From Candidatus Bipolaricaulota bacterium (GTDB lineage: Bacteria > Bipolaricaulota > Bipolaricaulia > UBA7950 > UBA9294), in NCBI GenBank assembly GCA_030612485.1, contig JAUWNS010000163.1, positions 1 through 5,305 on the forward strand: DNA of 5,305 bases, in the 5' to 3' direction. Below, in pieces: positions 2,957-5,305 of this stretch (the first letter of the stretch is position 1; each line of letters opens with the position of its first letter). The translations under genes were made by a program, and so were the position numbers. The notes under the pieces are model-generated. The model was not told the DNA's origin. It made no database searches and saw only the letters and a list, made by a program, of their open reading frames with translations.

Positions 2957-3061
2957 GATCCGAAAGAACCTGAAGGGGTTGGGATTCGATGTGTAGCGCA
3001 CGTGACTCGCAGCTTCCGGAAGAGCAGCAAGAGGGAATTGTGCAACAGGCTGTTTCACAAT
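2957..3061 (+). repeat. Direct repeat copy A: hsdM tail plus palindromic flank
   Basis: This 105-bp block aligns without gaps to 4597-4701, 1640 bp downstream, with 80 identical positions by my hand count (about 76%). It covers the last 12 codons of hsdM with the stop, then about 65 bp of flank including CTTCCGGAAGA and a palindrome. The best conserved parts are the hsdM tail and the palindrome. The two copies bracket the fic gene. Confidence 0.85.
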
Positions 3062-3063
3062 TC
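3035..3063. repeat. Long palindrome downstream of hsdM (copy A)
   Basis: Arms GAATTGTGCAACAG (3035-3048) and CTGTTTCACAATTC (3050-3063) pair across a one-base centre with a single mismatch (C3043). No T-run follows, so it is not a standard intrinsic terminator. It sits 40 bp before the fic start and has a better-matched sister at 4677-4701. It could be a protein binding site, a recombination site or an mRNA-stabilising hairpin. Confidence 0.8.
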
Positions 3064-3091
3064 GGTCCTCTCCCACATACCGATACTGAGC

Positions 3092-3103: not shown

Positions 3104-4186
3104 ATGCCATTTGATAGGAATTCTCCATACAACGCGCTTCCGCTACTTCCACCAAGTGTGGATCTTGAGACGAAGCCAATCCTGCGACGCTGCATCGCGG
3201 CCAACAAGGCTCTTGCTGAACTCAAAGGAGCAGGTGATGTCATCCCCAATCAGGCAATGCTGATCAATGCGATTCCTCTGCAAGAGGCGAAGTTGAGTTC
3301 AGAGATCGAGAATATCGTGACAACGCAGGATGAGCTTTTCCGGGCTGCACTTGATGAGAGCAGTTCTGCAGACCCGAAGACGAAGGAAGTGCTCCGCTAT
3401 CGTACAGCACTCCGCCGTGGCGTGGAACTTCTGCATTCCGATGGCCTCTCATTGGGCCTCCTGGAAGAGGTGTGTAGCGTGCTCCGCGACGAGAGTGTCG
3501 CGTTTCGAACTGACCAGTTTGTCCGAATCGGCAATCCGGACACCGGCGTCATTGCGTACACACCCCCATTTGGTGCAGGGGGCATTCGAGAGAAGCTTGA
3601 GAACCTGCTAGATTTCCTGTTGAGCCCGAGCGAGCTGGACCCACTCATCCGGCTGGCCGTCGTGCACTACCAATTCGAGGCGATCCACCCGTTTGACGAC
3701 GGGAACGGTCGCACAGGACGCATACTGAGCATCCTTCACCTTCTACATGAAGGCCTGCTCAAGATCCCAGTTCTGTACCTCAGCCGGTACATCATTCAGA
3801 GGAAGCCAGAGTACTACCGTCGCTTGCGAGAGGTCACAGAGAAGGGAGCTTGGGAGGACTGGATTCTCTACAAGCTTGAAGGGATTGCAGAGACAGCGTC
3901 GTGGACAACGAATCGGATCTTCGCGATTCGGGATCTGTTCAATGAGACACTCGATTGCTGCCGAAGGGACCTCCCAGGAAGGGTGTATTCGAAGGAACTG
4001 ATCGAACTCGTGTTCACGCAGCCGTACTGCAAGATCCAGTTCCTGGTCGATGCGGGCATCGCCGCACGCCAGACTGCATCGGAATACCTCAAGGAGCTTG
4101 AGAAGGTCGGGGTCCTCTCTGGAGAGCAGCGGGGGCGCGAGATGATCTACAAACATCCGGGGCTTCTGGAGGTATTGGCCGCGTGA
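3104..4186 (+). CDS. Fic family protein, probable AMP-transferase with built-in inhibitory helix
   Basis: Fic enzymes usually transfer AMP from ATP to hydroxyl side chains of target proteins. This 360-residue protein has the full active-site motif HPFDDGNGRTGR at 195-206 (catalytic H195, anion-binding GNG, R206). Upstream is a target-docking flap around 143-155 (GNPDTGVIAYTPP). In the N-terminal domain, SSEIEN at 65-70 fits the inhibitory motif (S/T)xxxE(G/N), whose glutamate blocks productive ATP binding, so it is a self-inhibited class II type Fic needing no separate antitoxin. Residues about 295-350 look like a winged helix-turn-helix (KIQFLVDAGIAARQTASEYLKELEKVGVL). Length and domain order resemble the Shewanella SoFic group. 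It starts 107 bp after hsdM in the same direction and lies between two copies of the hsdM tail. Codon choice appears less GC-biased than hsdM, which suits separate acquisition. Target unknown. Confidence 0.93.
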   Translation: MPFDRNSPYNALPLLPPSVDLETKPILRRCIAANKALAELKGAGDVIPNQAMLINAIPLQEAKLSSEIENIVTTQDELFRAALDESSSADPKTKEVLRYRTALRRGVELLHSDGLSLGLLEEVCSVLRDESVAFRTDQFVRIGNPDTGVIAYTPPFGAGGIREKLENLLDFLLSPSELDPLIRLAVVHYQFEAIHPFDDGNGRTGRILSILHLLHEGLLKIPVLYLSRYIIQRKPEYYRRLREVTEKGAWEDWILYKLEGIAETASWTTNRIFAIRDLFNETLDCCRRDLPGRVYSKELIELVFTQPYCKIQFLVDAGIAARQTASEYLKELEKVGVLSGEQRGREMIYKHPGLLEVLAA

Positions 4187-4202: not shown

Positions 4203-4358
4203 GTGTCGAATTACGGACAGTATTTCGACACGAACGGAGAACGTGTCGATGATCTCGACATGTGAATGGCCACTTGTCGAGAGCACGAGAAGAAATCGAC
4301 ACATCGATGGCTTCGACATGTCCTGGCGACATGTCGATGAATGGAATCCACATCGACA
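4203..4358. repeat. Array of nine TGTCGA/TCGACA sites in alternating orientation
   Basis: TGTCGA occurs at 4204, 4244, 4275 and 4332; its complement TCGACA at 4225, 4255, 4296, 4313 and 4353 (start positions). Successive starts are 21, 19, 11, 20, 21, 17, 19 and 21 bp apart, so most steps are close to two helical turns and one is a single turn. Several pairs extend into longer inverted repeats: GTGTCGAA/TTCGACAC (4203-4210 and 4224-4231), ACGTGTCGA/TCGACATGT with one mismatch (4241-4249 and 4255-4263), and TGTCGATG/CATCGACA (4332-4339 and 4351-4358). GACATGTC is itself palindromic and occurs at 4315-4322 and 4328-4335. The array starts 17 bp after the fic stop. Likely a multi-site protein binding region or a structured fic 3' UTR; no known family is recognised. 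Confidence 0.8.
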
Positions 4359-4518
4359 CGTTCGCCGTGACCAAGCCAGGTCGTGAGGGACTCGGGAGAT
4401 GAAACGATGGCATTGCCAGACGTGATGTCAAGCCAGAATCCTGATGACGGGGCATGACGGGAGTCATACGGATTGATATGACAACACATAACAGGTCTCG
4501 AAGGATGAGAACGATGAA
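4359..4518. other. Gene-free stretch between the two motif arrays
   Basis: I see no gene, RNA signature or strong promoter here. It is rich in TGAC/GTCA (4368, 4427, 4445, 4455, 4463, 4479), including ATGACGGG twice ten bases apart (4444-4461), which may be chance or a weaker set of sites. Together with its flanks it makes up the roughly 400-bp non-coding region between fic and the hsdM relic. Confidence 0.4.
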
Positions 4519-4562
4519 CGAATCGACCGACATTCGACCGACGGATCTCGCGAATCGACCGA
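4519..4562. repeat. Three phased TCGACCGA repeats
   Basis: TCGACCGA starts at 4523, 4534 and 4555; the first and third lie within the identical 12-mer CGAATCGACCGA (4519-4530 and 4551-4562). The steps of 11 and 21 bp match one and two helical turns and recall the spacing of the TGTCGA array upstream. All three are in the same orientation. Function unknown. Confidence 0.6.
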
Positions 4563-4597
4563 TTGGCAATACGCCGATCACTACAACCACGATCACG

Positions 4598-4636
4598 ATC
4601 CGGAAGAACCTGAAGGGGCTGGGACTTGATGTGTAG
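4598..4636 (+). pseudogene. Relic of an HsdM C-terminus
   Basis: Codons read [12 protein letters not shown] then TAG, matching the true hsdM end [12 protein letters not shown] at 2958-2996. No HsdM-like sequence precedes it: the upstream frame is low-complexity, threonine-rich sequence from non-coding DNA. It is a fragment left by duplication, recombination or cassette insertion and is not expected to be functional. Confidence 0.85.
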
Positions 4637-4676
4637 CTCAAACGATCCCCACCTTCCGGAAGAACGTGGCTGCCAA

Positions 4677-4701
4677 ATTGTGAAACAGCCTGTTTCACAA
4701 T
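4677..4701. repeat. Perfect 25-bp palindrome (copy B)
   Basis: ATTGTGAAACAG (4677-4688) and CTGTTTCACAAT (4690-4701) are perfect reverse complements around a single C at 4689. It is the sister of the palindrome at 3035-3063 and closes the direct repeat on the right. No T-run follows. The next recognised feature is the promoter at 4738. Confidence 0.9.
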
Positions 4702-4737
4702 CCCCGTCGCATGACCGCCGAAAGGTGACAGCGGAGC

Positions 4738-4766
4738 TTGACAACTATGATTCTCCCCGCTATAGT
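4738..4766 (+). promoter_or_regulatory. Near-consensus sigma-70 promoter upstream of small RNA and abi gene
   Basis: TTGACA (4738-4743, perfect -35) and TATAGT (4761-4766, 5 of 6 to TATAAT) are separated by exactly 17 bp. Transcription should start about 4772-4774. It is by far the best promoter match in the window and directs transcription into the terminator hairpin and abi. Confidence 0.88.
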
Positions 4767-4772
4767 GTAGTT

Positions 4773-4825
4773 AGCACACCCGCCGGGCCTCTGTCGCAAG
4801 ACATGCTATCTCTCGGCGGGTTTTT
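4773..4825 (+). ncRNA. Putative small RNA, about 50 nt, upstream of abi gene (candidate AbiF RNA antitoxin)
   Basis: A strong promoter places the 5' end near A4773, and an intrinsic terminator ends the transcript at about 4825. The RNA can form stem ACCCGCCG/CGGCGGGT (4778-4785 with 4814-4821) and a TGTC-GCAA-GACA hairpin with a GNRA tetraloop (4792-4803). TAGCA at 4772-4776 can also pair with TGCTA at 4804-4808, which crosses the main stem and makes an H-type pseudoknot. From the literature as I recall it, AbiF genes of the Abi_2 family are stably linked to a conserved non-coding RNA that acts as antitoxin; the position directly before an Abi_2 gene fits. The alternative is a terminator/attenuator leader of the abi mRNA; both may hold. 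The exact 5' end is inferred from the promoter. Confidence 0.7.
4778..4825 (+). terminator. Intrinsic terminator between promoter and abi start
   Basis: An 8-bp perfect GC-rich stem, ACCCGCCG (4778-4785) with CGGCGGGT (4814-4821), runs into TTTTT (4821-4825). It lies within about 10 nt of the predicted transcription start and 15 bp before the abi ATG. Most transcripts should therefore stop as a short RNA, with readthrough supplying abi mRNA. Confidence 0.8.
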
Positions 4826-4829
4826 CATT

Positions 4830-4835
4830 GGGGGT
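4830..4835 (+). promoter_or_regulatory. abi ribosome binding site (modest)
   Basis: GGGGGT lies 5 nt before the ATG at 4841. It is a weaker match than those of metK and fic, which would suit low toxin expression. Confidence 0.4.
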
Positions 4836-4840
4836 AAGGC

Positions 4841-5305
4841 ATGAAGTACGCCAAGCCTCCCCTCGCAATAGACGACCAGGTCAAACTCCTATTCCAGCGT
4901 GGGATGGATGGCGACCCTGAGCTGATGGCACGGCAGCTCACCGCTGTCAACTACTACCGCCTCAGTGGGTATTGGCACACGTTTCGCAAACCAGATGACT
5001 CTTTCAAGCCCGGCACTTCTTTCGATGAAGTCTGGACCACGTATGTATTTGACCGCCACCTTCGCTTGCTTGTGATGGATGCGATCGAGCGGATCGAGAT
5101 CGCCGTCCGGTCCCTTATGGCTTATCACCACGGACACGAGGACGGAGCATTCGCCTATGCGGAGGATTCGTCATCTCTTCCCAAGATGAGCCCAGACGAT
5201 CACGACGAGTTTCTTGCCCGGATAGCCGAAGAAACTGAGCGCAGCAAAGAGACGTTCGTGGAGCATTTCCAAGCCAAGTATGGCGACTCTCACCGGTATC
5301 TCCCC
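4841..5305 (+). CDS. Abi_2 (AbiD/AbiF) family abortive-infection protein, 3' end outside window
   Basis: The 155 visible residues start MKYAKPPLAIDDQVKLLFQRGM. They carry the family N-terminal pattern (LTAVNYYRLSGYWHTFR at 34-50), then FDEVWTTYVFDRHLRLLVMDAIERIEIAVRS (61-91) and RSLMAYH at 90-96, an Rx5H motif of the HEPN ribonuclease type. Abi_2 proteins are usually about 300 residues, so roughly half is present. They are HEPN-related proteins linked to phage-induced growth arrest through RNA cleavage. The gene follows a strong promoter and a short terminated RNA, the arrangement reported for AbiF, whose toxicity is restrained by a neighbouring RNA. The start is set by ATG 4841, consistent with the family N-terminus. 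The subfamily (AbiD versus AbiF) cannot be settled from the half that is visible. Confidence 0.9.
   Translation, partial: MKYAKPPLAIDDQVKLLFQRGMDGDPELMARQLTAVNYYRLSGYWHTFRKPDDSFKPGTSFDEVWTTYVFDRHLRLLVMDAIERIEIAVRSLMAYHHGHEDGAFAYAEDSSSLPKMSPDDHDEFLARIAEETERSKETFVEHFQAKYGDSHRYLP

Follow-up and report, generated by a model that had tools for sequence, protein, structure and literature searches.

The window analysed here, a 5,305-nt stretch of DNA from a Candidatus Bipolaricaulota contig, ends inside a gene of the AbiF/AbiD family. Just ahead of that gene lie a sigma-70-like promoter and a short sequence that can fold into a hairpin followed by a run of T's, all on the forward strand (Table 1). 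A sequence-only reading of the window had proposed that the promoter drives a short RNA that acts as antitoxin to the HEPN toxin encoded downstream. Here we describe the anatomy of this unit, its conservation beside homologous genes and the models that could account for it.

Other genes precede it. The hsdM gene of a type I methyltransferase (1224-2996) is split: a stop at 2462 ends its frame, and reading resumes in an open frame at 2496-2996, with parts of the Pfam N6_Mtase domain in both pieces. GC-rich stretches containing CTCTCCC/GGGAGAGG-like repeats lie at ~2470-2530 and ~2660-2760. A complete SoFic-type fic gene stands at 3104-4186 (PADLOC SoFic, E 2e-110), beside hsdM and abiF. It is flanked by two copies, at 2957-3066 and 4597-4701, of the 3' end of hsdM and the stretch that follows it; the duplicated segment comprises the coding tail and a palindromic part around AATTGTG...CTGTTTCACAAT. 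In the closest relative found (L010, described below), a single copy of this segment comes right after hsdM, with abi next. Two flanking copies in the window and one in the relative point to an insertion of the fic segment accompanied by a duplication. Of the 12 TGTCGA/TCGACA hexamers in the window, 9 cluster in a 155-bp stretch (4204-4358) after fic and ahead of the duplicated hsdM tail; they are possibly operator or recombination sites.

Table 1. Coordinates of the predicted RNA-toxin unit within the window
Feature	Position	Strand	Basis
-35 box TTGACA	4738..4743	+	promoter scan; T-rich at the same place across 80 aligned loci
-10 box TATAGT	4761..4766	+	promoter scan; enrichment at this place across 80 aligned loci
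Inferred transcription start, A, 7 nt past the -10 box	4773	+	A in 80/80 loci
abiF-type antitoxin RNA (predicted), ~53 nt, single self-terminating hairpin	4773..4825	+	R1 match 4774-4827
Outer helix, 8 pairs (A-U, CCCGCC/GGCGGG, G-C)	4778-4785 with 4814-4821	+	covarying pairs in homologues
Inner helix, 3 pairs, GGC with GCU	4786-4788 with 4805-4807	+	covariation in homologues
Tip hairpin UGUC-GCAA-GACA	4792..4803	+	sequence and fold
3' bulge AUCUCU	4808..4813	+	Rfam consensus has CAAAU here
U-tract of the intrinsic terminator, same hairpin	4821..4825	+	sequence; T-richness in 80/80 loci
G-rich ribosome-binding region	4830..4839	+	sequence: GGGGG 4830-4834, AAGG 4836-4839
AbiF/AbiD (Abi_2, HEPN) toxin gene, first 155 codons, truncated at the window end	4841..5305	+	PF07751

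RESULTS

The Abi_2 gene

The 155 residues that are present match Pfam PF07751 (Abi_2) with an E-value of 5.5e-31, and PADLOC labels the protein AbiD (E 1.9e-34). The best solved relative is chain A of PDB entry 8vz6 ('Abi family protein'), which aligns with residues 3-151 at E 2e-18. This entry is identified in a review as PbAbiF with its RNA (PMC12737573), and the fold of the window protein is already told by the sequence match to it.

With the gene cut at residue 155, the place of the catalytic HEPN motif R-x4-H falls past the end of the window. Among 89 homologue frames examined, RN-x3-H occurs in 83 of the 84 longer than 250 amino acids. The remaining five are L010, truncated by the end of its contig, and four that read short (L036, L044, L065 and L071). 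G092, the nearest relative found with a complete gene, has RNICAH; its protein is 68% identical over the part shared with the window. The ribosome-binding region ahead of the start codon is G-rich and modest, as the weak site described in the earlier reading implied. A search of viral contigs with this single protein as query, which reaches close relatives only, returned no relative.

Promoter and presumed start site

The elements TTGACA-17 nt-TATAGT agree with the sigma-70 consensus at 11 of 12 positions. This is the sole sigma-70-like site in the interval 4300-5305; since shuffled sequences are expected to hold 0.8 such sites, the match alone is not significant. Homologous loci supply the missing weight. 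When 80 loci, the window included, are aligned on the covariance model R1 (see below), the last T of the -10 box is found at its place in 60/80 and the second A in 54/80. An A seven bases past the box is present in every one of the 80. The -10 box, the -35 region and the start A all lie outside the columns of the model. This conservation of the -10 place and of the start A shows that the window promoter, called near-consensus in the earlier reading, is real.

Fold and termination of the hairpin

From position 4773 the sequence runs through an AGCAC leader, the hairpin and five T's to the ATG at 4841, with 15 nt separating the end of the U-tract from the start codon. Given a start at A4773, the length of the RNA would be ~53 nt. 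The segment 4773-4830 folds with a free energy of -21.6 kcal/mol (z -3.3), and 1 of 200 shuffled sequences did as well; two longer stretches containing the hairpin that were tried are unremarkable (z -1.2 and -1.3). In the window, the minimum free energy fold pairs part of the inner-helix sequence differently and lacks the conserved inner helix. The fold that contains it comes to -21.4 against -21.6, a gap of 0.2 kcal/mol.

Does the same hairpin also act as a terminator? A simple terminator scan reported no site, presumably because the loop of the hairpin exceeds the scan's 8-nt limit. Across the 80 aligned loci, at least five T's fall within nine bases from the closing U in 80/80, against 6.6% of control positions, a count that is partly selected because R1 includes tail columns. 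Most likely, then, the 5' end of the RNA lies five bases ahead of the hairpin and its 3' end at the terminator that the RNA itself forms. This agrees with the transcript of roughly 50 nt, ending in an intrinsic terminator 15 bp before the Abi_2 gene, that the sequence-only reading had described. Tandem Repeats Finder returned 0 rows for the window.

Conservation beside homologous genes

The homologue loci number 89: the best 80 of 573 confirmed genome candidates, 8 of 316 plasmid records and 1 of 47 phage records. Counts over them refer to related sequences and not to independent events. Their upstream regions were scanned for stems, and R1 was built as a covariance model from 37 homologous upstream regions, with the window and two of its relatives (L010 and L018) left out.

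RNAalifold recovers the same 11-pair structure from the 37-sequence alignment. Pairs in which both sides have changed make up 6 of the 11. Cells with both sides changed number 45, against 12.6 in shuffled alignments (none of 500 shuffles was as high); sliding the partner column gives no more than 10. At the outermost pair of the inner helix both sides have changed in 20 of the 37 sequences. Of the cells, 97.5% are paired, a figure partly selected because the seeds of R1 came from the stem scan; the changes on both sides are less so. The tip hairpin varies in length and sequence across homologues, and the bulge AUCUCU is common to the window, L010, L018, G092 and G098.

Run on the window with filters off, R1 matches 4774-4827 with 56.6 bits (E 8e-16). 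This is the one match above 5 bits on the forward strand; the others are a mirror match of 12 bits on the reverse strand and one of 4.2 bits at 1216. In a search over 512,914 bases with a threshold of E <= 0.001, the model finds the RNA ahead of the gene in 79 of the 89 homologue loci, and in 42 of 52 once the 37 training loci are set aside. As one check of its case, the sequence-only reading had called for a hairpin conserved upstream of homologous genes. That hairpin is present, with covariation, at these 79 loci and at three Abi_2 genes in the 100 genomes described below, and the contrary outcome, a lack of conservation, did not appear.

No R1 match at E <= 0.001 was obtained at 10 of the 89 loci (L006, L007, L008, L023, L034, L049, L070, L073, L081 and L083). 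Four of these, the actinobacterial L007, L070, L073 and L083, have in this position another GC-rich hairpin, CCAGCC.../...GGCTGG, that follows CAACACG and has a T-tail; it may represent an additional branch of this RNA family. R1 was also applied to four more distant phage loci, L099-L102, taken from the other 46 phage records, and gave no match at E <= 0.01 (best E 0.02). Hairpins upstream of their genes are visible by eye. In one, Lactococcus phage proPhi1 (L101, 524-578), a promoter, a hairpin and a U-tract precede an Abi_2-like gene annotated as 'CAAX protease', with a weak R1 match of 13.4 bits (E 0.02).

Some loci depart from the pattern of one RNA per gene. Self-terminating abiF RNA units stand in tandem upstream of a single abi gene in L025 (three units, 49-302), L046 (two, 2716-2962) and L053 (two, 2659-2965); by eye, each unit appears to have its own -10-like box. 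L088 holds a second strong abiF RNA at 396-443 (58.8 bits with R1, and also past the RF03085 cut-off). Downstream of this RNA comes a frame of at least 399 codons that encodes a type I restriction specificity domain (PF01420, E 2e-19). The abi gene of L088, at 3001, is far away and has an RNA of its own. The second copy is possibly an orphan antitoxin RNA.

Relation to Rfam family RF03085

RF03085 is the curated model of the abiF RNA, and its primary paper is reportedly Weinberg 2017. At the gathering cut-off, Rfam finds nothing in the window. At E <= 10 on 601 nt it finds nothing relevant; a match to ar14 shares the GC arms. RF03085 itself gives the window 12.5 bits against a gathering cut-off of 37 bits. 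The homologues behave similarly, with the cut-off missed at 74 of the 89 loci. Where it is passed, the matches coincide with those of R1 (14 of the 80 loci L010-L089, 13 of these 14 being in the R1 training set). The abiF RNA of the Clostridioides difficile phage phiC2 (L008) is recognized by RF03085.

The sequence-only reading had called for comparison with the published AbiF RNA model, and where Rfam reaches, the window hairpin falls in register with RF03085. The window differs from that family in having GGC for AGC, AUCUCU for the bulge CAAAU and a longer tip. The shared register, together with a score of 12.5 bits against 37, makes the window RNA a divergent relative of the abiF RNA and not a curated RF03085 match. 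By its sequence, it is an abiF RNA that the curated model misses.

Relatives in the same phylum

Among the matches listed, the closest relative of the window is L010, a Bipolaricaulota contig with 79% protein identity that is likewise cut within its abi gene. The two RNAs differ at 3 of 53 positions (94% identical), one of them in a helix, where a G-U pair is kept. The coding parts differ at 117 of 465 positions (75% identical; Fisher p 0.0009 against the RNA), and the DNA upstream of the promoter differs at 35 of 138 (p 0.002 against the RNA).

One hundred genomes of L010's phylum were searched for both partners. Abi_2 occurs in three, L010's own genome among them, and the three strong R1 matches (E 1.8e-12, 1.1e-10 and 3.9e-10) each lie just upstream of one of these three genes. 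Two of the loci, G092 and G098, are nearer to the window than most of the best 80 of 573 and were found through this search alone; G098 has a compensatory change from G-C to A-U in the outer helix. In this search 57 first-look candidates per genome were scored under stricter filters, so weak RNAs were possibly lost. Three weak R1 matches (E 1.4e-5 to 1.5e-4) fell in genomes with no Abi_2 match (G033, G044 and G075). The first two we rejected as abiF RNAs, since they are short-loop terminators, and the third, with no U-run directly after its stem, was likewise not accepted.

RNA and protein distances are correlated over 80 sequences, with two short ones dropped (Mantel r 0.60; none of 2000 permutations was as high). 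At the level of sequence, this shows that the two are inherited together; it does not show contact.

DISCUSSION

We conclude, with a probability of roughly 0.9, that the locus encodes an AbiF toxin with an abiF-type RNA antitoxin, arranged as in type III systems, with a self-terminating short RNA and a toxin made by read-through. The RNA-antitoxin/AbiF HEPN assignment of the earlier reading is thus upheld by the conserved and covarying hairpin, by its register with RF03085 and by the precedent from C. difficile, as far as that system is described (PMC12373285). Our analysis contributes the anatomy, homology, covariation, conserved promoter and presumed start, co-occurrence and co-inheritance. 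The abundance of the RNA, read-through, binding, neutralization, ribonuclease action and triggering by phage are extrapolated from published relatives.

RCd22, the corresponding RNA of C. difficile, is reported to be co-transcribed with abiF and to stop mostly at a terminator upstream of it. It binds AbiFCd and neutralizes it both in cis and in trans, and neutralization is lost when its stems are destabilized; it carries two abiF motifs and a separate terminator, in transcripts of 88 to 132 nt (all as given in PMC12373285). The window resembles this system (phi027/phiC2; L008) in placing an abiF motif upstream of Abi_2 behind a shared promoter, with a toxin mRNA predicted to arise by read-through, and in the conserved stem CCCGCC/GGCGGG with its inner AGC/GCU. 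It differs in having one motif that would itself be the terminator, in an RNA of ~53 nt (predicted), and R1 matches L008 weakly (E 0.002 among 90 sources). The second precedent is PbAbiF-AbiFr of Prevotellaceae (PDB 8vz6; Zilberzwige-Tal et al. 2025), whose protein is homologous over the residues given above and whose RNA we compare through its description in a review: each monomer holds one RNA, in which a single-stranded bulge is inhibitory (PMC12737573).

How might the window unit work? A sigma-70-type promoter would start a short RNA at A4773, which after five leader bases would fold into one hairpin. Because U's directly follow the 3' arm, most RNA polymerases would terminate at this point, yielding an abundant RNA of ~53 nt; occasional read-through would give the toxin mRNA. 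The RNA would bind the AbiF HEPN ribonuclease dimer, its 3' bulge near the active site, and keep AbiF inactive. Should the supply of RNA fall or read-through rise, for example on takeover by a phage, free AbiF would cut RNA and growth would stop. By analogy with these relatives, the hairpin RNA very probably both neutralizes the toxin and stops most transcription before it.

An alternative proposal is that the hairpin is a cis-acting attenuator alone, which limits toxin transcription and yields a short RNA with no role in trans. The U-tract does follow the hairpin directly, within the toxin's own leader, and a terminator by itself would lower the level of toxin. An attenuator, however, has no need of an internal helix, a 3' bulge and a constant 5' end conserved across many phyla, and the homologous C. 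difficile RNA is reported to act in trans and to bind the protein (PMC12373285). We consider the attenuator unlikely.

Less probable still is that the RNA is a guide, aiming AbiF at targets as a crRNA does for Cas13, and not an antitoxin. AbiD/F proteins are reported to co-occur with RF03085 and to form a clade with the HEPN domains of Cas13an, and RNA guidance before Cas13 has been suggested (PMC12165695). Against this, no part of the window RNA is a variable single-stranded spacer: what varies is a short closed tip, and the ends of the RNA appear fixed by promoter and terminator. A CRISPR-Cas13 repeat-spacer array was not found in the window, with 0 tandem repeat rows and a single R1 match. 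Weakest of all is the view that the hairpin has nothing to do with Abi_2 and is either an ordinary terminator belonging to the gene before it or a product of chance. In its favour, the three weak R1 matches without Abi_2 show other hairpins reaching E 1e-5 to 1.5e-4 (two being plain short-loop terminators). It is scarcely credible given a window E-value of 8e-16 and strong matches in the 100 genomes that adjoin Abi_2, and we reject the version in which the hairpin terminates the preceding gene, as a conserved promoter of the unit's own stands immediately ahead of the hairpin.

Returning to the RNA antitoxin, the sequence-only reading had singled out the window RNA as very compact. It is a single hairpin with a U-tract, but there is nothing peculiar in that, as the same form stands beside the gene at all 80 R1 loci. 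To judge from sequence, one hairpin serving as both antitoxin motif and terminator is usual among the window's relatives, unlike the C. difficile RNA. Tentatively, and with less than even confidence, we extend this to a joint reading: in a large set of AbiF loci spanning many phyla, the antitoxin motif would be the intrinsic terminator, both being one hairpin carried by a separate ~50-nt transcript whose 5' base is always A. Since motif and terminator would be the same, one structure would set both the dose of antitoxin and the read-through into the toxin. AbiF might then bind the hairpin as it emerges and so adjust termination ahead of its own gene, and defeat of termination, for instance by phage antitermination, would release the toxin.

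The ToxIN, TenpNI and CptNI systems of type III share with the window the order of promoter, RNA antitoxin, terminator and read-through toxin, which for the window is known at sequence level. In ToxIN, a tandem-repeat RNA forms a pseudoknot and is cut by the toxin; the window has instead one hairpin and no tandem RNA repeats. Toxin and antitoxin structures of the ToxIN kind are reported to be unlike those of AbiF (PMC12373285). The window locus, by analogy with its relatives, would work like a type III system and stands outside the ToxIN family.

The locus is a clear member of the AbiF/abiF-RNA kind, and the kind itself is already known, having been described in C. difficile and Prevotellaceae (PMC12373285, PMC12737573); an RF03085 match has also been reported in a cyanophage (PMC9964418). 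Its interest lies in three directions. The curated RNA model is incomplete, reaching its cut-off at 15/89 homologue loci against 79/89 for R1 (37 being the training set). A recently described type of toxin-antitoxin system, near the proposed root of Cas13, is now placed in Bipolaricaulota. Finally, the minimal self-terminating RNA predicted here offers a simple object for studying how one hairpin can be both a terminator and a ribonuclease inhibitor, and it bears on how such RNAs could have become guides.
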